Assembly (NCBI RefSeq): GCF_017873335.1
Contig: NZ_JAGGKB010000004.1
Span: 1-64,000 of the forward strand
Length of the DNA stretch: 64,000 bases
Direction of reading: 5' to 3'
Source of the DNA: Thermococcus stetteri
GTDB lineage: Archaea > Methanobacteriota_B > Thermococci > Thermococcales > Thermococcaceae
The notes under the pieces are model-generated. The model was not told the origin of the DNA and ran no database searches. It worked only from the letters and a program-made list of their open reading frames with translations. The translations under genes were made by a program, and so were the position numbers. Positions 3,963 to 39,513 of this stretch are shown here, piece by piece. Every line of letters begins with the position of its first letter. Position 1 is the first letter of the stretch.

Positions 3963-4815
3963 CGCTCATCTAGGTATTCTGGTTGATATTAGTTCTGGGA
4001 ACCACCCCCACCTGTTATTCAAAAGCAACGCCAGAAAGTCCAAATAACCCTGCAACTCAAGCTGGCACACGATACTTCCTCAGATAAGCCCTCAGAAAAC
4101 CATGCCTGTTCTCACAACTGTTAACATGCTCACAACGTGCAAACTCCCTTTCAGAATGATTAACCCGCTCATGAGAACTGATAACCCCCAAACCCTCCCT
4201 CAGAGAATCATAAATGGAATACTCGTCAGTAAAAACCTTCAGTTCGCCCGCAATCAAATTTCCAACCCGCTGCTTGAGTTTCTGAGGAAAATCCCGCAGA
4301 TTCTCAAAGACAAGAAAGAGAACTTGCCCTGTTCTTCGAGCCACGAGAGTCGCGTGCGGGTAAACTTCGTCAATTTCAATAACATCCTCCAGCCTGACTT
4401 TAGAGTTTCCGGCTATCCTCTGCACTTCGTGGACGAAGTTTAGGACTGCTTGGTAGTCCCTGTTGAGTTCTTCTGAGATTAGTTTGGTGCTTTTGTGTGG
4501 CATTGACCCGTTAAGTCATTTCGTTGATTGGGAATTTGCGGTGGTCGAATATTGTGCCTGTTAAGTCGTTGAAGTGTTTTCTGCAGTTTTTGCAGTGGTA
4601 TTTCTGGGCTCTTTTCGGTGTGTGTCCGTTTTTCTGGATGTTTTTACTGTCGCAGTATGGGCAGGTTACTCCGTCTGGCCAGCGGATTTGTCTGATTGTC
4701 CTGTAACACTCTTCTGGGTCTGGTAAGAATAATCTTCGGGCGATTATGTCGTTTGTAATTACCCCTGTCATGAAGAAAACTTAAAAACCTTTCAGTCACA
4801 ATAAGTAGATGAGCC
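3963..4815 (-). mobile_element. IS1595-family element, copy 1 (defective)
   Basis: An 853-bp copy with imperfect terminal inverted repeats: CGCTCATCTAGGTATT at the left and, read inward from the right, GGCTCATCTACTTATT. Compared with copy 2 it has an in-frame loss of about 93 bp just after the first catalytic Asp region, a rearranged stretch near 4500-4520 that breaks the frame, and altered sequence near 4055-4070 that truncates the C terminus. Confidence 0.85.
3966..4771 (-). pseudogene. IS1595-family transposase, copy 1, broken
   Basis: The N-terminal segment (4511-4771) holds a zinc ribbon with CPYC and CKNC and ends prematurely after FPINEMT. A second segment (4057-4503) has the ISXO2-like DDE domain: EIDEVY with the first Asp, FTDEYSIYDSL with the second, and HVNSCENRHGFLRAYLRKYR with the HxN...E signature. 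It stops early after KYRVPA where copy 2 continues for about 30 residues. The basic linker expected after EVYPHA is missing. This copy cannot make a normal transposase. Confidence 0.85.
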
Positions 4816-4830
4816 TAAAATAAACGGAAA

Positions 4831-6656: not shown

Positions 6657-7624
6657 CGCTCATCTAGGTATTCTGGTTGATATTAGTTCTGGGAACCACC
6701 CCCACCTGTTATTCAAAAGCAACGCCAGAAAGTCCAAATAAGCCTGCAACCACCTGAAACTAACACCACGATACTTCCTCAGATAAGCCCTCAGAAAACC
6801 ATGCCTGTTCTCACAACTGTTAACATGCTCACAACGTGCAAACTCCCTTTCAGAATGATTAACCCGCTCATGAGAATTAATAACCCCCAAACCCTCCCTC
6901 AGAGAATCATAAATGGAACACTCGTCAGTAAAAACCTTCAGTTCTCCCGCAATCAAATTTCCAACCCGCTGCTTGAGTTTCTGAGGAAAATCCCGCAGAT
7001 TCTCAAAGACAAGAAAGAGAACTTGCCCTGTTCTTCGAGCCACGAGAGTCACTACCGGCGGTTTTCCGGACTTTGCAGTTCCCCTGCCACGCTTGTGCCT
7101 GCCTCTCCGCCTGGGACTCTTTTTTTAAAGCCTTTACTGCCGGCGTGCGGGTAAACTTCATCAATTTCAATAACATCCTCCAGCCTGACTTTAGAGTTTC
7201 CGGCTATCCTCTGCACTTCGTGGACGAAGTTTAGGACTGCTTGGTAGTCCCTGTTGAGTTCTTCTGAGATTAGTTTGGTGCTTTTGTGGGGCATTGACCA
7301 GATTATGTAAAGCATTTCGTTGATTGGGAATTTGTGGTGGTCGAATATTGTGCCTGTTAAGTCGTTGAAGTGTTTTCTGCAGTTTTTGCAGTGGTATTTT
7401 TGAGCTCCTTTCGGCGTGTGTCCGTTCTTCTGAATGTTTTTACTGCCGCAGTATGGGCAGGTTACTCCGTTTGGCCAGCGAATTTGTCTGATTGTCCTGT
7501 AGCATTCTTCTGGGTCTGGTAGGAATAATCTTCTGGCGATAACATCGTTTGTGATTACCCCCGTCATGTTGAGTACTTAGGAAGAAAACTTTAAAGCCTT
7601 TCAGTCACAATAAGTAGATGAGCC
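6657..7624 (-). mobile_element. IS1595-family element, copy 2 (near full length)
   Basis: A 968-bp copy with the same terminal inverted repeats as copy 1 (CGCTCATCTA at the left, GGCTCATCTA read inward from the right). It carries a full set of transposase motifs, interrupted only by one frame change at an A7 run. Its outer end is followed by the AAATGTTT target duplication. It is the most complete of the four copies in the window. Confidence 0.9.
6660..7567 (-). CDS. IS1595-family transposase in two frames joined at an A7 run
   Basis: Frame one (7567 down to 7052) has the zinc ribbon (CPYC...CKNC) and the first catalytic Asp (EIDEVYPHAGSKGFKK). Frame two (to 6660) has VTLVARRTGQVLF, the second Asp (FTDECSIYDSL) and HVNSCENRHGFLRAYLRKYR. 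At TTT AAA AAA AGA a -1 step restores the basic linker KKSPRRRGRHKRGRG that the IS1595 fold expects between them. With that step a protein of about 300 residues results. The A7 could be a programmed slippage site or an inactivating indel; the sequence alone does not decide. Confidence 0.75.
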
Positions 7625-19070: not shown

Positions 19071-19200
19071 TTTAAAGAACGCCGAAAAAAATTATAAGGC
19101 TTTTACTGTTCCGCCTTCCGGGCGGGCCCGTGGTCTAGATGGTTATGACGCCACCCTTACAAGGTGGAGGTCCGGGGTTCGAATCCCCGCGGGCCCACCA
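19071..19200 (+). repeat. Duplicated tRNA-Val block, copy A
   Basis: This 130-bp stretch (promoter plus whole tRNA) recurs at 21886-22014. The two differ only by one A in a poly-A run and by a G/T substitution in the leader. The promoter is duplicated too, so the repeat is longer than the usual tRNA 3'-end copy left by an integrase. Confidence 0.9.
19124..19200 (+). tRNA. tRNA-Val(TAC), copy A
   Basis: The acceptor stem GGGCCCG pairs with CGGGCCC. The anticodon stem CCACC/GGTGG has loop CTTACAA (anticodon TAC). The T arm GGGGTTCGAATCCCC is present, and CCA is encoded at the 3' end. A TATA-like AATTATAAGG lies about 30 nt upstream. Confidence 0.95.
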
Positions 19201-19757
19201 CAAAAACTTTGCAGGACAAAGTTTCATCAAAGTTTGTAGCCCCTTCTTGAAGTGCTTTATGAGAGGTTTTCTGCTTGAAGCCAATTGTTTTGAATGGGAA
19301 CTCCGTTAGGTAAGGGCTTTTCTGACCTCTTCCCCGCCGTGAAGGGCGAGGCTTGAAAAAGAAAAAAGTAATGGGTTTAACTCTAAAAAGACACCCGTAG
19401 GGCGTCAGAAGAAAGTAACCTACATGAATAGGGCCTTAGTAAAGAGAGTTCCAGTTTGAAGGGAATGTTTCAGAATTTAAAACCTGCTTGAATTCACAAT
19501 CTTGCAAAGAGCTACGGACTTTTTGTGAAGTTCTTTTCCGAAAGCTTCCTGTGCTCTCAAACCTCCGGTAGTGGGGCTTCACCCCGCACTCAAGGCTTTT
19601 TCCGGAATCTGGATACAAACTCGTGAACTCGAAATATTCGGTGATAGTTGTGCATACGGGTTGTACACTTAGGCTGCATTTTAGAGACCGAAATTTTCTT
19701 ATAGTTCTTTGTAACAACCACGTATGAACTCTCTTAAAAGGGTTAGGAGGTTCTCAA
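19201..19757. other. Gene-poor stretch between tRNA-Val copy A and the transglutaminase-like gene
   Basis: No convincing gene. It contains a 15-bp repeat (AAAGTTTCATCAAAG at 19218-19232, again at 22296-22310), an IS200/IS605-like end at 19321-19370, and short inverted repeats such as CTTCTTTTAAAAGCTTC-like sequence shared with 22480-22520. A minus-strand frame of 93 codons (19436-19717) has an unnatural composition and is not called. Confidence 0.5.
19321..19370. repeat. Solo IS200/IS605-like element end
   Basis: TCTGACCTCTTCCCCGCC, then GTGAAGGGCGAGGCTT, then an A/G-rich tail. TCTGACCTC(C)TCCCCGCC also occurs at 57273-57290 in the IS200/IS605 element, and GAAGGGCGAGGCTT occurs at 229-242. 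No transposase sequence is attached, so this is a remnant or a non-autonomous copy. Confidence 0.55.
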
Positions 19758-21572
19758 ATGTCCGAAAAGGATCTTCACTATCTTATTACGCGGGTTATCA
19801 ATCCCTATTTGAATTGGATTACCGCCTCTTTGCGTTCTAACAATCGCGTCTTATATGGCCGTGATGGCTATACCCGCATCCACTGGATGGATCATACTTT
19901 AAGTGATACGTTTGCATCAGAGCTTGAAGAGTGGAGAAATAATCTCTGGTATAGCTACAGAGAGGATTTTCTTGAGCGTGGTGCCGAGATTTTGGATTCC
20001 CTTCTTGAAATTATGATCAGGATTGAGGCTAAACTTCCTGACAACGACAGCAAGGGTAAGATAATGTCCAATTTATGGGAAATGGCTGGGAAGGTAGAGG
20101 CTTATCTTGGACTCAATGGCTATTTGGAGTCAAGGAAAGATTACTTCATCAACAAGGCAGTTGAAATTAGGAGGCGAGATGAAGAACTTAGACGAAAACT
20201 GGAAAAACAGAAGAAAAAAGAGGATGTTGGCGGCAAAGTGGACAGAAGGTTGGCTAGAAAGTCCATCTCGGGGCCGGAAAGAAAAATTGGCTCCACCACT
20301 AACAAAAGAACCTTTCTCACAACACCCTCGCAAGAAAAGCCTAAGAAAAAGCGAAAATGGAAGCTCCCTTGGAAAAAGTTCTTTGGGTTTATGTTGATGT
20401 TCTTGATATTCTTTGCCCTCTACGATCTAAGTCACACTAATGGACGACTTGTGCGGCAGGTTATCCCAGATGATATTGAAACTAAGATTTTGGAGTTTTG
20501 GGGCACAGTGGAGAACTCCACTGAAGAAGTGGCATCCGTAAAGTCGCCAGATGATATTGAAACTAAGATTTTGGAGTTTTGGGGCACAGTGGAGAACTCC
20601 ACTGAAGAAGTGGCATCCGTAAAGTCGCTGGCATCCACTGCAGTTGCATGCTCCAAGGCTGATTATTCGTTGGAGGCTGCGTTGGAATGTTACCTTAACG
20701 ATCCGGATGAGTTCCGAGCCTTGGAACCTCTGGCATCCCAACTAAAGAGCTCGACTCTGCAGGAGAGCGCGTGGAATATCTTGGCGTGGGAGGATCAACA
20801 CATCCAATATGATTGGGCAAAATACCACGGTTTGGGATCGATTAAGATACAGAAGCCATCTGAGACTATTCAGAGTGGCTCGGGGGTTTGCGTGGATTAC
20901 GCTATCTTGACTGCAGGCCTGCTCTTGGCAATGAACTATTCCCCAGTATCCATATTTGAAATTAACTTCTTAAACGATCCGACGGGACATGCAGCCACTG
21001 CGATAAAAATTAACGGGCAGTTCTTTATGGTAGACCAGCATCCACCAATAATGGATTTAGGGACGTACTGGAAGTACTGGGCCTATTGGCGCAGCGAGTA
21101 CTCTGACGGAACCCTAAGCAATTTGATAATATCCTCTGCAAAGGTCTATGAGGCAAGATTGGAGTCAGGAAAAGTTGTTGTTGACTACGTGGGAACTCTG
21201 ACTGGTGAAGAATTCAAGAAATACGATTACACTTTCTCAGAGACTGATTTAACAAAGCTTATCTCAGATTTGAGGGCAAAGTTCATCAGAAAGTTCCCAA
21301 ACTTGCAGCTGGACTCAAAGATTTCTAACCTTGACACTGCTGCGTATTTGCCGTATGGTTACTCCGATGGAGTTGTGTGGCAAACTACGTTTCCGTATCT
21401 CACCGAGCACTACAACCCTCTATTCCACGACAAGTTTGTTGATTACATATATTCTCAGATAACCGACAGCAGGGAGATTGTTTCTGACTTAAGAACCTAC
21501 AACAGGTTTTGGGTTAAGGGGCAGATAGAGGGGGATAACATGAAGGTAATTCTATGCTTAGCCAAAAAGTAG
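19758..21572 (+). CDS. Membrane-anchored transglutaminase-like protein
   Basis: 604 residues. An N-terminal helical domain of unknown type is followed by a very basic linker (residues 150-205) and one membrane span (FFGFMLMFLIFFALYDL, about 208-226). Then comes a perfectly duplicated 27-residue segment (237-290) and a transglutaminase/cysteine-protease-like domain. The likely catalytic triad is Cys378 (GSGVCVDYA), His411 (TGHAATAI) and Asp426 (MVDQHPP). The domain probably faces outward. AGGAGGTT precedes the ATG. The gene is alone between two tRNA-Val copies. Its AT-richness differs from core genes, and the target is unknown. Confidence 0.75.
   Translation: MSEKDLHYLITRVINPYLNWITASLRSNNRVLYGRDGYTRIHWMDHTLSDTFASELEEWRNNLWYSYREDFLERGAEILDSLLEIMIRIEAKLPDNDSKGKIMSNLWEMAGKVEAYLGLNGYLESRKDYFINKAVEIRRRDEELRRKLEKQKKKEDVGGKVDRRLARKSISGPERKIGSTTNKRTFLTTPSQEKPKKKRKWKLPWKKFFGFMLMFLIFFALYDLSHTNGRLVRQVIPDDIETKILEFWGTVENSTEEVASVKSPDDIETKILEFWGTVENSTEEVASVKSLASTAVACSKADYSLEAALECYLNDPDEFRALEPLASQLKSSTLQESAWNILAWEDQHIQYDWAKYHGLGSIKIQKPSETIQSGSGVCVDYAILTAGLLLAMNYSPVSIFEINFLNDPTGHAATAIKINGQFFMVDQHPPIMDLGTYWKYWAYWRSEYSDGTLSNLIISSAKVYEARLESGKVVVDYVGTLTGEEFKKYDYTFSETDLTKLISDLRAKFIRKFPNLQLDSKISNLDTAAYLPYGYSDGVVWQTTFPYLTEHYNPLFHDKFVDYIYSQITDSREIVSDLRTYNRFWVKGQIEGDNMKVILCLAKK
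20466..20627 (+). repeat. Perfect 81-bp tandem duplication inside a gene
   Basis: Units 20466-20546 and 20547-20627 are identical at every base and in frame (27 codons each, beginning PDDIETKILEFWGTVENSTE). Identity at synonymous positions indicates a recent duplication. It lies just after the membrane span, in the linker to the transglutaminase-like domain. Confidence 0.95.
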
Positions 21573-21885: not shown

Positions 21886-22014
21886 TTTAAAGAACGCCGA
21901 AAAAATTATAAGGCTTTTACTGTTCCTCCTTCCGGGCGGGCCCGTGGTCTAGATGGTTATGACGCCACCCTTACAAGGTGGAGGTCCGGGGTTCGAATCC
22001 CCGCGGGCCCACCA
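21886..22014 (+). repeat. Duplicated tRNA-Val block, copy B
   Basis: Second copy of the leader plus tRNA at 19071-19200. Together the two copies form a 2.8-kb direct-repeat bracket around the transglutaminase-like gene. Confidence 0.9.
21938..22014 (+). tRNA. tRNA-Val(TAC), copy B
   Basis: All 77 nt are identical to the tRNA at 19124-19200, including the encoded CCA and the TAC anticodon. Its own TATA-containing leader is also present, so both copies should be expressible. Confidence 0.95.
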
Positions 22015-22129
22015 TAACAGCCCTTTCTTGCGAAAGCGCTGGCGGAAGAGGAGTATGCACTTCTAACAAGCTGGTTTTGGAGTGGGTTTACCTACCAGTT
22101 GCTAGATTTACAGGATTTCCTCTCAGTAT

Positions 22130-22628: not shown

Positions 22629-23373
22629 ATGTCAAAAAAGGAGATAATCCTTGGTCTCACACTAGCAATATTTTGTGCCATAGTTATAATAATCGGTACC
22701 GAGACTTGGAACTTCCCATACTGGCTACTTGGAGTTCTTATTGGATTATCGCTATTAGTACTATCCATTACTAAATCTAACTGGAAAATAAAAGACTGGT
22801 ATACGTTCATAATCTCATCATTAACAATCTCACTTGTGATTCTAATTGCATATTGGATGGGATGGACGATTAATCCTAAAGAAAAAGGTTTATCCAAATG
22901 TAAGCGATATTATCTTAGGGTTATCTGCAATAGCAACGGTATTAATGGTGTTCTATGTGGCAATGCAAACCCAAGCTACTAAGGAATCTATTGAGGAAAT
23001 GAAGACACAGAGGTTGATTAATGTTATATTGCCTGCATCCAGTATGTTACTTGAGATTAAGGATCTCATTAAAGACAAGGAAGAATGCCTTAGGGGTCGG
23101 GAAGATGTTTGGGGGGATGCACCTTGGAGGGATAGTACCTTTGGCCAATTGAGAGATTTGAAAGAATGCCTAAAAAGGTCCGAGTTGACATTCGTTGCTT
23201 CGTTAATCCCAGAACGTAGATTATACCAAGCTCTAGAAGAGTATCAAACCACTATTATCTCCCTCAGGGAAGCTTATGGTAAACTGTCCTACGTTCTAGA
23301 TACAAATCCTAAAGTTTCAGAGACCATTCACACAATTATGATAGAGAGCAATGTGAAAATAAAAATGAAAAAC
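22629..23373 (+). pseudogene. Membrane protein, frameshifted and truncated by an IS1595 relic
   Basis: The first frame (from 22629) starts MSKKEIILGLTLAIFCAIVI and has three or four membrane spans up to WMGWTINPKE. At an A-rich run near 22880 the frame changes, and the continuation (KKVYPNVSDIILGLSAIATV, then a coiled helical region ending near NVKIKMKN) lies in the next frame. It runs directly into the IS1595 copy at 23373, so the native C terminus is lost. The layout (membrane spans plus a helical cytosolic domain) is like the protein at 18319-19056. I do not recognise the family. Confidence 0.7.
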
Positions 23374-23839
23374 GCTCATCTAGGTATTCTGGTTGATATT
23401 AGTTCTGGGAACCACCCCCACCTGTTATTCAGAATCAACGCCAGAAAGTCCAAATAACCCTGCAACCACCTGAAACTAACACCACGATACTTCCTCAGAT
23501 AAGCCCTCAGAAAACCATGCCTGTTCTCACAACTGTTAACATGAACCTCACCACGCGCAAACCCCCTCCCAGAATGATTAACCCGCTCATGAGAACTGAT
23601 AACCCCCAAACCCTCCCTCAGAGAATCATAAATGGAATACTCGTCAGTAAAAACCTTCAGTTCGCCCGCAATCAAGCTACTCCGTCTGGCCAGCGGATTT
23701 GTCTGATTGTCCTGTAACACTCTTCTGGGTCTGGTAAGAATAATCTTCTGGCGATAACATCGTTTGTAATTACCCCCGTCATGTTGAGTACTTAGGAAGA
23801 AAACTTTAAAGCCTTTCAGTCACAATAAGTAGATGAGCC
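23373..23839 (-). mobile_element. IS1595-family element, copy 3 (internally deleted)
   Basis: A 467-bp copy with both terminal inverted repeats (CGCTCATCTAGGTATT at the left; GGCTCATCTACTTATT inward from the right). The transposase start (minus strand from 23781) runs to RQIRWPDGVA and then joins directly to LIAGELKVFTDEYS, losing the zinc ribbon and the first catalytic Asp. The same join, GGAGTAGCTTGATTGCGGG, is in copy 4. The flanks show no 8-bp direct repeat. The right end lies 25 bp before the unknown gene at 23865. Confidence 0.85.
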
Positions 23840-23864
23840 TTAATGTGGGGTAAAATGAGGTGAC

Positions 23865-26081
23865 ATGCAAATGTATGGGCCATTTGATAGGGAACTTGGC
23901 AAGGTAGAAAAGGGCCATATACGGATAAAGACAAAAGAAGAAAGAAAGTATTACGACTTGCTTGGTGCGCATCTCACACACTTTTTCGCCGACTATGCGT
24001 TGTTTCGAAAGATCGTTAAAGCAATATACCCCGAAGCCAAAGAGACGGACATTCAAAAATACAGCGTCGCGATCACTTCAAATGGAAGGCGCGGAAAGGC
24101 GTTTGGGATCTGGATAGAAGGATATGGAAAACATGCCGAAGAGGTGCCAGCATGGGAATACCCAAAACTCTCTTTGTTTTACCGCCTGCTGACTGCACTA
24201 ACAGCAATGAAGTACAATCTCGACATAGAAAACGCGTACAGGGCATTATCGGTCGAGCTTCCAAAGAGATTAGGCCACAGGGTTCCAAAACCTGAAGAAA
24301 TAAACGAGATCGAAAGAACTGTAAACGAACTCGTTCGAGAAGGAATGCTTCCCGAAAGAGCGAAGCGAGATGTTATTGACCTGGCAAAGGAACTCTCTCA
24401 GATTGTTTACGAATTATTTCCTCGCAAGGAATCAGCCCTTGAACATCGCGAAAAGGTTATAAAGCAGATAAAAAAGTACAGAAAATGGGGTATAGAAGAA
24501 CATGACCTCGGTGTTTACTGGTACGAAGTTGTTCTTGAGGACGTACTAAAGAAGCACAGCAAAAACATCACCGAAATAATGAGAAGAGAAGCTGCACAGC
24601 AGCCCACACCAACTACAGTGCCTACCAAAACTATCACGCAGAAGATTCCCTCCGAGGTGGAGGAAGCGTTCAAGGCGTTGAAGGGGATGGGAGTAGATCT
24701 AAAGCTAGAGACGGGAAACGTGGCGGAGAGGAAGGCGAAGATATACGCGTGGCTCATGCAAAACGGGCTGATACATGTAGAGCAGGAAGGGGAGAAGGTA
24801 AGGATCATTCCAACGGAGAAGATGCATCAGTTGATTGCGAAGCACGGGAAGACAGCAGGGGCAATACTGAAGTGGGCAGCGGAGGAAGGAGTGGGATTAG
24901 AACACGTTGAACCAGTGGGCAGGATCGTTTCTGCACTTGAGGAACTAAGGCAGATTGCCAAGAAGAAAGATCCGGCGCTGGCAAAGACATTAGAAAAGGC
25001 CATGAAGAGTAAGCACACCATAAAGGAACTGTATTACCTCCTTCAGGGGGAGTACGCCCCGGAAGACCTTTCAAAGAGATGGTCGGAGCAATTCGGACGA
25101 GTGGACTTCTACAGGCTCTTCGAACAGTATCCTGAACTGGCGAAGGCGACGCTCAAGGCAATGGAAGAGATGGAGAAAAAGGGGCTGACCGCACCCCCAG
25201 TGCCAAGGTACTGGACGGATCTGCTGAGGGATCTAAGAGAAGGAAAGGTGGACCAGAAGAAGATTGAGGAATACCTTGCGTTTACAACATACGGCAAGCA
25301 CGTGTTCAACTCCCTCCATTCCATAGCAGGAGAAGAACTGCCGGAGGACGGGAAAGAGATAGAAGCGCTCATAAAGAACGTTATGACACACAACAGGGGA
25401 GTAGCAGAGGCGGTACTGACAAGGATAGGGGTAAGCGAGGAGGCGAAGGCAAGGGGCATGGAGTATCTGGAGCGGAACGTAGAACAGCTAGCGCAGATCA
25501 TCGCACATATGAAGGATCCCAACCATCTGGATAGGGTAGAGAGAAAGATCGCACCGATCCTGGAGAAACTACCGGCGAAAGGAAGGAGGATCGGACTGTT
25601 CAAGAAGGAGAAGTCGCCCAGGGAGAAGGTAGAAGACCTTGCAGAACAAGTTGTGAACGTTATACGAGCAGGAGCAAAGGAGGAGGACATTCAGGATTTG
25701 TTCAGACAGGCAGCGAAGTTGAAAGAGGAATTAAGGCAACACATCGGAGAGCAAGAAGCGGATCGGCTCGTAAGGATGATAACTGCCCCAGCGGTTGCGG
25801 AGATGTGGAAAAAGCGACTGAACGGAAGAGACCCAGCGAAGGAATACGTGAAGATCGTTGCGCAGGATAACCTGCACAGATTCATAGGTTTAGAGCCGAA
25901 GCTGAAGGAGATCAGGAGAACAATGCCCACAGGGGAAGAAGCGGTAAGGGCACACGATGACCTGGTCAGGCACCTGACGACGTGGGAGCTTCAAGGCACA
26001 ATGGTGGAGAGGGAACCGTTCCTGAAGAGAATAAGAACAAAGGAAGCGCTGAAGAATATAGTGGAAAGACACTACGGTTAG
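23865..26081 (+). CDS. Unrecognised large helical protein (738 aa), cassette gene 1
   Basis: I recognise no family. No signal peptide or membrane span is visible. The N-terminal 140 residues are a mixed fold with HLTHFFADYALFRKIVK and VAITSNGRRGKAFGIWIEG. Residues 260-310 resemble a winged helix (AERKAKIYAWLMQNGLIHVE, then EGEKVRIIPTEK). The remainder is long charged helices (for example REKVEDLAEQVVNVIRAGAK). No NTP-binding, nuclease or integrase motif is seen. GAGGTGAC precedes the ATG. The start is only 25 bp from the end of IS copy 3, so its original promoter is gone or replaced. Codon choice differs from core genes by eye. Confidence 0.85.
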   Translation: MQMYGPFDRELGKVEKGHIRIKTKEERKYYDLLGAHLTHFFADYALFRKIVKAIYPEAKETDIQKYSVAITSNGRRGKAFGIWIEGYGKHAEEVPAWEYPKLSLFYRLLTALTAMKYNLDIENAYRALSVELPKRLGHRVPKPEEINEIERTVNELVREGMLPERAKRDVIDLAKELSQIVYELFPRKESALEHREKVIKQIKKYRKWGIEEHDLGVYWYEVVLEDVLKKHSKNITEIMRREAAQQPTPTTVPTKTITQKIPSEVEEAFKALKGMGVDLKLETGNVAERKAKIYAWLMQNGLIHVEQEGEKVRIIPTEKMHQLIAKHGKTAGAILKWAAEEGVGLEHVEPVGRIVSALEELRQIAKKKDPALAKTLEKAMKSKHTIKELYYLLQGEYAPEDLSKRWSEQFGRVDFYRLFEQYPELAKATLKAMEEMEKKGLTAPPVPRYWTDLLRDLREGKVDQKKIEEYLAFTTYGKHVFNSLHSIAGEELPEDGKEIEALIKNVMTHNRGVAEAVLTRIGVSEEAKARGMEYLERNVEQLAQIIAHMKDPNHLDRVERKIAPILEKLPAKGRRIGLFKKEKSPREKVEDLAEQVVNVIRAGAKEEDIQDLFRQAAKLKEELRQHIGEQEADRLVRMITAPAVAEMWKKRLNGRDPAKEYVKIVAQDNLHRFIGLEPKLKEIRRTMPTGEEAVRAHDDLVRHLTTWELQGTMVEREPFLKRIRTKEALKNIVERHYG

Positions 26082-26128
26082 CAGCCGATGCCGTCACAAT
26101 CGGCGGTAAGGATCTCAACAACCTTCAT
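26078..26128 (-). other. Short reverse ORF MKVVEILTADCDGIGC
   Basis: Sixteen codons on the minus strand, starting with ATG at 26126-26128 and overlapping the stop of the gene at 23865. A TATA-like CTTTTTATACTCC lies about 20 nt upstream on that strand. A related ORF (MKVVEVVLTNGCSDALEE) sits at 28629-28685 in the same place relative to gene 3. Whether either is translated is unknown; the nucleotide repeat may instead be a terminator or recombination site. Confidence 0.35.
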
Positions 26129-26272
26129 ATTTTCATTTATTGTTGGGGGAGTATAAAAAGTTGTGCTTAGCGTGCTGGTGACCTTATAGTAGCAGAGTAT
26201 AACAAAAAGTTATGACTTAGGATAAACAAAAAAGTACGGGTAGCAAAGATCCTGGTTGTCGAAGTAGTTGCC

Positions 26273-27214
26273 ATGGACTCAGAGCTGAGCAGGGCGTTGA
26301 AGAGTGCAAGACTCCCGATCACGTTCGGACTAACATGCGCTGGAGCGACAGCGGTATGCTACGCAGCACTTCCCGGTGCGCAGGTAAAAGCATTGATAAG
26401 CTCGCCAAGGTCGCTTGCTGGCTGTTTGCTTGGATCTTTGTTAACCATGGCTCCAGGATTCCTCCTCAATATGGGAGGAGAAAATGAGTTGTCACCCACA
26501 CTTTCTCTTGGATTACTCGGTGGGACCACCTTAGCCGGCACCGGAGGACTCATCAGAGAAGGACTACGCATAAGGACAATAAGAGCAGGCTATTCCGCGA
26601 TGGAAAAATTGGCATCACCAAGTGCATTCGCGAAGACTGTTAAACAAATGAAGCTCGAAGCTACGACGACTATAAAGACGGTAGAGGGAGGTAGCGCTAC
26701 TGCACCAAAAACGACACCAATGTACGTTGGGCTACTCTCGAATGCAGAGGACGCGTTAAAAGAAAAGGGAGAACTTGCAGACGAACTTGCAAGTAACCCC
26801 ACACTGCGCAAGAACTTTGCGGACAAGCTCGACAACCTTGCAAAGATTGCGAAGGCGGCAGGAGACGATGATGCCGCAAAGATCCTGGAGGAAGCCGCCG
26901 AAAAGATGGTGAAAGCAACAGACGGGAAGACAATAACCAATATTCTAAATAGAATCGACAGAAAAATATCGCCGCAAAAGATAGAAGATCTGTTCAAAGC
27001 GCTCAAGGAGAAGGTAAAATCGTTCAAAGAAAATCCCGCACAGATCTGCACAACTGTCGGAATGCTTACGGCCACGACCGTTACATCTCTCGAAGCAATT
27101 GCAATGGTCGGGGACGTGGATCAGCTGAACGTGAAGATACACCCGTCCAGCAATGTAGCAAACATCGTAGTATCATCTCCCTGGATGAGAGACAAGATCG
27201 TCGAGGTGAAGTAA
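26273..27214 (+). CDS. Unrecognised membrane protein (313 aa), cassette gene 2
   Basis: No family recognised. The N-terminal 90 residues contain two or three hydrophobic, Gly/Ala-rich segments (FGLTCAGATAVCYAALPGA, SLAGCLLGSLLTMAPGFLL, SLGLLGGTTLAGTGGLI). A long charged helical region follows (residues 110-260), then one more hydrophobic stretch near the C terminus (TTVGMLTATTVTSLEAIAMVG). It could be a membrane anchor for the two soluble cassette proteins. A TATA-like GAGTATAAAAAG lies about 120 nt upstream. No clear ribosome binding site precedes the ATG. Confidence 0.8.
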   Translation: MDSELSRALKSARLPITFGLTCAGATAVCYAALPGAQVKALISSPRSLAGCLLGSLLTMAPGFLLNMGGENELSPTLSLGLLGGTTLAGTGGLIREGLRIRTIRAGYSAMEKLASPSAFAKTVKQMKLEATTTIKTVEGGSATAPKTTPMYVGLLSNAEDALKEKGELADELASNPTLRKNFADKLDNLAKIAKAAGDDDAAKILEEAAEKMVKATDGKTITNILNRIDRKISPQKIEDLFKALKEKVKSFKENPAQICTTVGMLTATTVTSLEAIAMVGDVDQLNVKIHPSSNVANIVVSSPWMRDKIVEVK

Positions 27215-27241
27215 TAAATACCACAAAGACGTGGTGATAAT

Positions 27242-28624
27242 ATGATCGGGATGTTCATATTCGGCGGGAAGAAAGAAAAGAAAAGGGAAAAGAGCTACGA
27301 GGAAATTCTGAAGGAAGCAGAAGAACGGTTTGGATTACCTGCAGACACAATAAAAGAACTTGCCCACTTATACGTATTTAATGCAGGACTCCCGAGGCTG
27401 GTACGCCACGCACATCCGGAAAAAGATCTGAAGCACGTCATGAGGATAACAGGGTCCGTGGACCAAGGGGATGATATATATGTATCCTCAATCATAGATG
27501 CAAAGTGGCGCGAAAAAGCGATGGGAATTAAGGATCCGCGAGCAGTCAAGTTTGTCCTCCTTCACCCGTTTATCGCGTTGATATTATCCCACCACAGCTC
27601 TGCGGAAATCAGCACAATAGGAAAGACGGTTAGCGATGCGCTGAACGTGTTCTACGGACAATTGAAAAAGACGTACGAGGATGCAAAGAAAGAGCAGGAC
27701 AAGCTGATAGATTACATCATAAGGATGGCAGAATTTAACCGCCTCCCGATAGTGAAGGAGAAACTAAGAGAGCAGCTGAGGCAAGGTCTTCCAAAGGCCT
27801 TTAAAATCGTGGATAAACTTCTCCCAGACAATAGCAAAGAGCACGCAATACTGCTTGAAAGCGCATTTAGATACTCTGTGAAAGATCCGTTGGTGCTCCT
27901 CAAACAGGCAGGCATCGACATCGAGCCGGAACTTGAGGAGTTCCGTCAGTTCTTGGCGGAGATCGGCGGGAAGAAACCACTCGCACCGAAGTTCAAACAA
28001 ATTCAAAAACAGGAAGAGGAGAAACTCAGGGCGAAGGGAGTGCCGGAAGATGTGATAAAGGCAACGGCGCCGCGACTAGCCACTGTCAGGTACTTCGAGG
28101 AGGCCTTGAACGCGATGGACCACGAAGTGTACAGGAACATGGGCGGAGTGCCCGTGGAGTACGTGAAGAAGATAAGGAACATGGCGCTGGCGAAGAAGCT
28201 GGCGGCTGAGCACATATTCAACGTATGGGGGAAGGAGGGCATACGTCCGGTTCTCCTCCCGGAGGTTCCCGAGCAGCACAGGAAGCTCATAGAGGAGTTT
28301 GCAAGATGGATGTACGAGGACACGAAACACCTTGCAGAGGCACACAGGAAAGGAGCCATTGCAGAGGAATCGGTATTTAATATAATGACCGCAGAGATGG
28401 CCCTGACGGACAAGATCTACGAGATCACCGGTAAGCTCATATCGGACCCGTCGGCGCTGAGGGAGATTCCTGAAGAACACAGGACTGCGCTAAAGATACT
28501 CACGAAGAAAGATCCCGGCACACATATGATCAAGATGGACCGGTTGGGGGAATACAAGGAAACGATAAAGATGCACCTGGACAAGACACGACCGATAATC
28601 GTAAAGCACGTGGAGAAGAAGTGA
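27242..28624 (+). CDS. Unrecognised helical protein (460 aa), cassette gene 3
   Basis: No family recognised. A lysine-rich start (GGKKEKKREKSYEEILKEAE) is followed by helices throughout. The N-terminal domain (LAHLYVFNAGLPRLVRHAHP, then VDQGDDIYVSSIIDAKWREK) is loosely similar in layout to the N-terminal domain of gene 1 (HLTHFFADYALFRKIVKAIYP, then VAITSNGRRGKAFGIWIEG), so the two may be distant paralogues. GGTGAT lies 5 nt before the ATG, and gene 2 ends 27 nt upstream, so the two are probably co-transcribed. No catalytic motif is visible. Confidence 0.85.
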   Translation: MIGMFIFGGKKEKKREKSYEEILKEAEERFGLPADTIKELAHLYVFNAGLPRLVRHAHPEKDLKHVMRITGSVDQGDDIYVSSIIDAKWREKAMGIKDPRAVKFVLLHPFIALILSHHSSAEISTIGKTVSDALNVFYGQLKKTYEDAKKEQDKLIDYIIRMAEFNRLPIVKEKLREQLRQGLPKAFKIVDKLLPDNSKEHAILLESAFRYSVKDPLVLLKQAGIDIEPELEEFRQFLAEIGGKKPLAPKFKQIQKQEEEKLRAKGVPEDVIKATAPRLATVRYFEEALNAMDHEVYRNMGGVPVEYVKKIRNMALAKKLAAEHIFNVWGKEGIRPVLLPEVPEQHRKLIEEFARWMYEDTKHLAEAHRKGAIAEESVFNIMTAEMALTDKIYEITGKLISDPSALREIPEEHRTALKILTKKDPGTHMIKMDRLGEYKETIKMHLDKTRPIIVKHVEKK

Positions 28625-28628
28625 GGGA

Positions 28629-28685
28629 TCACTCCTCAAGGGCATCGCTGCAACCGTTGGTAAGAACAACCTCAACAACCTTCAT
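28629..28685 (-). other. Short reverse ORF MKVVEVVLTNGCSDALEE
   Basis: Eighteen codons on the minus strand just after cassette gene 3. The first 15 bases, ATGAAGGTTGTTGAG, are identical to the start of the ORF at 26078-26128. GGTGGTGGGAAC lies upstream and belongs to the end of the IS982 relic. Translation is uncertain. Confidence 0.35.
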
Positions 28686-28688
28686 ACC

Positions 28689-29166
28689 CTAGTTCCCACC
28701 ACCTGTAAAGTTGTATAATCCCTCCAGATTCACGGCCAGAATCGCCCCCAAAATCCTGACAGCCAAACCCCTCAAACTAACACTCCTGCTCGGTTTCAGA
28801 AGAAACTCAGAAAACGTCAAACCGCCAGAACTCCTCCCAAAGCTCCCCACTCACACCCCCTTATCCAAAAACAGAAAACAACCAGTGAACTTCTCAACAA
28901 TCACCCAGAACTTCTCCCTGACAACGCTCACATCATGCTCGTTCGCCGGATCAATGGACAATAAAGCCAGCAAATTCCCGTCAGAGTAACACGTCAGCTT
29001 GTACTGTAAAACTTTTTAGACGGGACAAACCCAACCGCGGGCTTTTCAGTTATGACTTCTGAAGAACCGCCACCCTGATTTTGTTGTGAGTGTTTTTCGG
29101 GTAGTGTTTTCTGACTATCGGGTAAATTTCTGACTTTATGATCAGGATTTCCTTCTGGAAGTCCAT
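28689..29166 (-). pseudogene. IS982-family transposase relic
   Basis: Fragments in several frames match the IS982 layout. They are an N terminus MDFQKEILIIKSEIYPIVRK; a middle piece KLTCYSDGNLLALLSIDPAN, with EHDVSVVREKFW and FLFLDKGV; and a C terminus LRGLAVRILGAILAVNLEGL ending at TAG (28689-28691). Most of the central part is deleted. No complete terminal repeats were recognised. It bounds the unknown cassette on its right side. Confidence 0.65.
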
Positions 29167-38916: not shown

Positions 38917-39061
38917 ATTTCCCTTTTTCCTTCTTAAGCGTGGCCCAACAGTTGCTTTATAAACGATTCTCAGAGTTGCCAACCCCATAAAGGGCCAAAC
39001 CTCTTCAAGTTGGCGTTTCTCCTCACTGGACATCAATGGCAAATGGAACTAAAAACGACGA

Positions 39062-39457
39062 GGCTCATCTACTTATTGTGGTTGAAAGGTTTTAAGTTTT
39101 CTTCCCGAGTATTAGATTATGACAGGGGTAATTACAATCAGACAAATTCGCTGGCCAAACGGAGTAGCTTGATTGCGGGAGTTTACTGACGAGTGTTCCA
39201 TTTATGATTCTCTGAGGGAGGGTTTGGGGGTTATTAATTCTCATGAGCGGGTTAATCATTCTGGGAAAGAGTTTGCACGTTGTGAGCATGTTAACAGTTG
39301 TGAGGACAGGCACGGTTTTCTGAGGGCTTATCTGAAGAAGTATCGTGGTGTTAGTTTCAGGTGGTTGCAGGGTTATTTGGACTTTCTGGCGTTGATTCTG
39401 AATAACAGGTGGGGGTGGTTCCCAGAACTAATATCAACCAGAACATCTAGATGAGCG
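39062..39457 (+). mobile_element. IS1595-family element, copy 4 (internally deleted, inverted)
   Basis: A 396-bp relic in the opposite orientation to copies 1-3, with both terminal repeats (GGCTCATCTACTTATT at the left; CGCTCATCTAGATGTT inward from the right). It shares the internal deletion join GGAGTAGCTTGATTGCGGG with copy 3. It has two further small deletions: one in the N-terminal coding part and one right after the join. The transposase tail (FTDECSIYDSL, HVNSCEDRHGFL, then to RTSR) is still legible. The flanks have no 8-bp direct repeat. Confidence 0.85.
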
Positions 39458-39513
39458 TAACGTTTTCGAATGATATAACTCACAGGAATAGAGAGATTTT
39501 GAGTTCATGCCGA

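Follow-up and report, generated by a model that had tools for sequence, protein, structure and literature searches.

PDC-S27, an archaea-rich family in which an ATPase is fused to a PD-(D/E)XK domain, is a candidate single-gene phage defence whose validation is pending, and its ATPases rank among the commonest archaeal defence candidates still awaiting tests (PMC12988326). In the literature we found no experimental work on the PDC-S27 or the PDC-S01 ATPase family. Contingency loci governed by simple-sequence repeats (SSRs) are described from bacteria, the poly(A) tracts in inlA and swrA being examples (PMC2831843); an earlier report of SSR contingency loci in Thermococcales was not found in the literature.

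We here compare with these systems a locus of Thermococcus stetteri, located in a stretch of 64,000 nucleotides (contig NZ_JAGGKB010000004.1, positions 1 to 64,000), the whole of which is called the window. It carries three intact open reading frames, g1, g2 and g3, on the + strand. On the reading that we regard as probable, g3, and by analogy g1, would encode SSR-switched, domain-shuffling accessories of a candidate defence ATPase, and the window would hold an ON variant that is devoid of the ATPase. The features of the locus are:

23372..23843, - strand: IS1595-family relic with an internal deletion, ending 21-25 bp before g1
23865..26081, + strand: g1, 738 aa, family F3, made up of an N-terminal domain, a predicted winged helix and a helical C-terminal domain
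23937..23948, + strand: A-rich stretch GAAGAAAGAAAG of g1, frame intact in the window
24654..24812, + strand: g1 segment predicted as a winged helix (AlphaFold, pLDDT about 70-80)
26273..27214, + strand: g2, 313 aa, predicted membrane protein, family F4
27242..28624, + strand: g3, 460 aa, long-form member of the partner family F1
27474..27481, + strand: (AT)4 tract of g3, in frame (ON), homologous to the putative switch tract, (TA)n/(A)n, of the family
27911..27976, + strand: constant hinge GIDIEPELEEFRQFLAEIGGKK of g3, between its variable N- and C-terminal parts
28685..28784, strand not assigned: repeated sequence 3' of g3, compatible with a relic of an IS whose family is unconfirmed

The three genes, their families and their surroundings

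The initial annotation had described three same-strand genes of 738, 313 and 460 codons without known motifs. All three are indeed open, and searches of g1-g3 against Pfam, NCBIfam, PHROGs and PADLOC, and of g3 against PDB by sequence, gave no convincing match; weak Pfam, PADLOC and Foldseek matches (e.g. DruC, talin, tape measure) were rejected as helical or coiled-coil noise. The IS1595 relic that it had placed 5' of g1 is borne out by a match to PF12762 (E 8e-6, slightly below the cut-off) and by homologous copies elsewhere in the window; IS1595-family copies or relics lie at 3963-4819, 6657-7624 and 39061-39458. As for the proposed downstream IS982 relic, the repeat itself is real, with 93% matches at two contig ends; a search for transposase families recognised none. 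The duplicated tRNA genes are two tRNA-Val genes identical at 77/77 positions. Their duplication (19071-19203 and 21886-22017) includes about 50 bp of upstream sequence and encloses a transglutaminase-like (DUF553) ORF (19758-21572) with an exact 81-bp in-frame tandem duplication of 27 codons (20466-20628). An element of the form AACAACCTCAACAACCTTCATA ... GGGGGAGTATAAAAAG is common to the 3' side of g1 (26114-26163) and of g3 (28625-28686), is also present in loci L054, L061 and L064, and may mark a recombination boundary or act as a promoter. Neither an integrase gene nor a replication gene is seen at the locus in the window. Likewise, no ATPase gene stands next to g1-g3 there, a remnant upstream of g1 was sought by tblastn and not found, and the nearest DUF234 gene on the same contig lies at C4:103814.

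Among 94 genomes of the family, host copies included, relatives of g1 were found in 8 (loci L050-L057), of g2 in 6 and of g3 in 40. The profile of the multi-copy g3 family detects members in 48 of the 115 genomes of the class, every one of them from Thermococcaceae. Besides the window, L054 and L055 also combine members of all three families, with differing gene order. Relatives lie between housekeeping genes and beside an ATPase, and g1-g3 are not an isolated cassette.

In line with the earlier assignment, g2 is predicted to be a membrane protein from its three hydrophobic segments (residues 14-32, 47-65 and 262-280). Genes resembling g2 occur at 12 loci, and each of them has a co-oriented g1-like or g3-like gene on its 3' side. 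The fuller relatives measure 437-672 aa, and most possess a Cys-containing N-terminal region that is absent from the g2 of the window. The AlphaFold model of g3 is nearly all helical with a mean pLDDT of 91.7, and gave no match with E < 0.1 against PDB and viral models. The g1 model is weaker (pLDDT 72.8); residues ~264-316 are modelled as helix-helix-hairpin, likely a winged helix, which fits the winged-helix-like segment noticed before. A relation of g1 and g3 at their N termini had also been suggested. A profile built on residues 235-560 of g1 did wander into the g3 family on iteration, but hhalign assigned a probability of only 27% to regions other than the N termini and 0.5% to the g3 C-terminal domain; homology of g1 and g3 is therefore not claimed.

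Frame breaks at simple-sequence tracts

The g3 family was read in six frames, and 41 copies are readable over the region downstream of a common break zone at g3 residues ~65-90. Within this one zone 33 copies are broken (OFF) and 8, the window copy among them, are open (ON). In OFF copies the downstream half is either displaced into one of the two other frames or cut off by an in-frame stop; in most copies the second ORF is still open. A conserved start codon for this ORF was sought and none was found, and two separate overlapping genes were rejected on this ground.

Simple tracts occur at the break zone, as (TA)4-9 in one set of copies, A6-8 in another and (GA)4-5 nearby in a third, and are almost absent later in the gene: TA runs of at least 7 nt are found in 18 of 47 copies within the 65-nt bin that holds the break site, whereas no copy has one beyond this bin. 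When close copies are compared, frameshifting indels amount to 18 in 45 bp around the tract versus 21 in 470 bp downstream, and many of the latter sit in visibly decayed copies. Beyond the first 40 nt, L059 and L078 (83% identical) differ by a single indel, (TA)9 versus (TA)4, i.e. 10 nt; in other close pairs the tract lengths differ by 2 nt (L071/window) and 1 nt (L077/L081). As in SSR contingency loci, comparison places a coding tract near the 5' end throughout the family, with length differences that shift the frame.

Such tracts are rare elsewhere. Over the loci compared, dinucleotide runs of at least 9 nt reach 22.8 per 100 kb in partner genes (the g3 family and its relatives), compared to 3.6 in the accompanying ATPase genes and 1.9 in the rest; for homopolymers of at least 8 the respective densities are 13.7, 0 and 0.8. 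In the 94 genomes the only TA run of at least 16 nt belongs to a g3 homologue (G048); runs of at least 12 nt occur in four places, and by our count there are 38 places with at least 10 nt, 4 of which are at the break codon of g3 homologues. The long tract is (TA)9 in G048 and (TA)5 in G086, G033 and G037. Codon choice in the tract zone is biased towards repeat-forming codons (TAT 0.56 vs 0.34, ATA 0.72 vs 0.43, AAA 0.68 vs 0.48).

For g1, five relatives were compared at an A-tract (A6-A7) that lies near codon 25. Three of them, L051, L052 and L057, carry a frameshift there, while L050 and the window copy keep the frame. The g1 family behaves like the g3 family at this tract, and by analogy may be switched as well. 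Measured against the family, the window itself has only (AT)4 in g3 and an interrupted A-stretch in g1, so that its copies may be locked ON. The initial annotation had concluded from the open frames that the genes are kept by selection or arrived recently; the frames are open, and this is better read as the ON phase. Partner genes with other N-terminal parts (L153-L188) carry (AC)n/(CA)n, (AT)5 and (AG)5 tracts together with split frames, hence switching may reach a wider superfamily.

Probable reversible switching and its alternatives

In a maximum-likelihood tree of the g3 family the 8 ON copies need 8 changes and every one is an isolated tip, i.e. the ON/OFF state is not inherited by clade. 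Beyond the break, dN/dS of OFF/OFF pairs of close copies is mostly 0.13-0.30, with values near 0.4 in a few (L103/L108, L061/L062); the frame past the break in OFF copies is under purifying selection. Isolated ON tips and low dN/dS together favour recurrent, reversible switching over one-way decay. We thus consider it likely, and well supported by these comparisons, that the g3-family frame is switched by SSRs; OFF/ON switching would also take place inside one clone.

The alternative that survives best is a decaying family, in which transferred genes, useless or costly, are inactivated mostly at their slipperiest site and reversible switching does not occur. The excess of OFF copies (33/41) would be expected in this case, and some copies (L105, L106, L109 and L110) show plain decay with further frameshifts and deletions, while the window cassette is bordered by IS relics. 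Such a family is difficult to reconcile with the low dN/dS past the break in most close OFF/OFF pairs, with the second ORF kept open in most copies and with ON copies scattered as isolated tips; moreover, the tracts are kept, and favoured by codon choice, in genomes that very rarely contain long TA runs. Overall, we judge decay unlikely to account for the pattern.

Continued selection past the break would also be observed if slippage of the RNA polymerase or ribosome yielded some full-length protein whatever the tract length, so that the frame matters little, and A7-A8 and TA runs are slippery. However, the frames shift in both directions and in-frame stops occur at the site, unlike in programmed frameshifting by a single fixed signal, and the tracts are of three kinds without a conserved slippery motif. 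Recoding thus appears quite improbable.

The initial annotation had further considered a virion-related system. A structural module of a virus or plasmid, left by an element integrated at tRNA-Val, would be in keeping with the duplicated tRNA genes and IS relics close by and with helical proteins predicted beside one membrane protein. Yet relatives of g1-g3 were not found in phage, plasmid and viral-contig collections (the profile scan used a closer set of relatives; the full alignment holds no conserved stretch), viral structures gave no match, and the relatives are flanked by housekeeping genes next to an ATPase, which makes this origin very hard to sustain. Sequencing or assembly errors at repeats, to which some technologies are prone, are equally implausible, since the tracts are short (A7, (TA)4-5), their length differs by clade, many genomes show the pattern independently of assembly state, single-contig ones among them, and the neighbouring ATPase genes are mostly intact.

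ATPase partners and comparison with known systems

At 22 loci of a first set, an ATPase_2-DUF234 gene lies upstream on the same strand, at most 123 nt from the family match. At 14 loci of this set the spacing is 36-38 nt, i.e. the partner would start only a few bases past the ATPase stop. Another 36 loci were detected through the shared core alone; the ATPase is upstream in 24 of them, and many of the partner genes there are again split, with A, (AC)n, (CA)n or (AG)n tracts. With up to 13 such ATPases in the 2 Mb of a genome, the observed spacing is not due to chance. The upstream ATPases, in which DUF234 is the PD-(D/E)XK part, match the PADLOC family PDC-S27 (E 4e-40 to 2e-52). A PDC-S01-type ATPase (AAA_14-DUF4143) is present instead in the two cases seen, directly 5' of the partner in L062 and at the head of the run ATPase, g2-like, g3-like in L058. 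Since many PDC-S27 ATPases stand without a partner gene, the partner is best regarded as an accessory; in regions 3' of partner-less ATPases such tracts are nearly absent. On the 3' side of the partner there is often another ATPase gene, convergent and coding for ~350-440 aa, typically within about 300 nt (L073, L083, L101, L107, L155, L170, L175, L184); that of L155 is an ATPase_2 protein plus an MCM_C-like winged helix.

Where the ATPase gene ends and the partner gene begins, the sequence is conserved at the DNA level. Some 75 bp over the ATPase stop and the partner start are conserved between different ATPase families (L062, L071), and CGAAAGGCTTATC inside this junction resembles a Thermococcales promoter. 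The partner has variable N- and C-terminal parts and, between them, a hinge of 22 residues that hardly varies. Synonymous-codon agreement in the hinge is up to 0.88, compared to about 0.4 elsewhere. Hinge and junction look like sites of gene recombination.

The following mechanism could account for these observations. A short repeat close to the 5' end would slip and so change the frame, the ON state giving a full-length, mostly helical protein and the OFF state a truncated product of ~85 aa. A typical member takes second place in an operon that opens with the gene of an ATPase_2-DUF234 protein of PDC-S27 type, and the longer form of the partner comes after a g2-like membrane protein. The constant hinge and constant 5' header would permit exchange of the variable N- and C-terminal parts. 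ATPase and partner, made from one operon, might form a complex, and slippage would toggle the partner among lineages of a population. When ON, the partner (in the window the membrane protein and the long partner) might confer recognition, specificity or effector activity against viruses or other elements. In the window there is no ATPase, the N-terminal region of g2 is lost, and both g1 and g3 are ON.

Two families confined to Thermococcaceae, apparently switched by repeats and with relatives beside suspected antiviral ATPases may point to a hidden on/off defence-like system. We propose a role in defence or conflict tentatively. An immune-like Thermococcaceae system of two to three components, i.e. 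a PDC-S27 or PDC-S01 ATPase with a domain-shuffled helical partner switched by replication slippage in the population and of new fold, or with a membrane protein plus partner, is a somewhat more speculative proposal. The membrane-linked defence or conflict system suggested by the initial annotation gains indirect support from the PDC-S27 and PDC-S01 ATPases beside g1 and g3 relatives and from the position of g2-like genes at 12/12 loci. Its interpretation is partly supported overall, and the main features, i.e. the ATPase partner, the frame switching by repeats and the hinge that stays constant between variable parts, were beyond its reach.

If PDC-S27 works with a switchable, shuffled partner, this partner would be a direct handle on ATPase function, and an OFF strain would explain how defence activity might be missed. 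This would also be the first repeat-based contingency system described for hyperthermophilic archaea, and repeat-driven bet-hedging would extend beyond bacteria to organisms in which long TA runs are otherwise almost absent.

Compared to known systems, the locus shares membrane proteins with integrated plasmids of the pT26-2 type, some of which are known to target tRNA-Val (PMC6972569). It differs from them in that tblastn of g1-g3 against a plasmid collection, which possibly does not include pT26-2 itself, returned no relative, and in that no integrase or replication gene is seen at g1-g3. PDC-S01 ATPases were seen in two cases only, upstream of the partner in L062 and of the g2-like gene in L058; the header sequence is similar. 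The gene directly 5' of most ATPase-linked partner genes belongs to PDC-S27; this family is listed as a single-gene candidate, whereas here a subset has a tightly coupled, putatively phase-variable second gene, and g1-g3 of the window have no adjacent ATPase. With the bacterial SSR contingency loci of Neisseria and Campylobacter the family has in common a coding tract near the 5' end, changes of its length and ON/OFF frames. It differs in that it involves no surface antigen or methylase, belongs to hyperthermophilic archaea and comprises short TA, A, GA and AC tracts in one multi-copy family.
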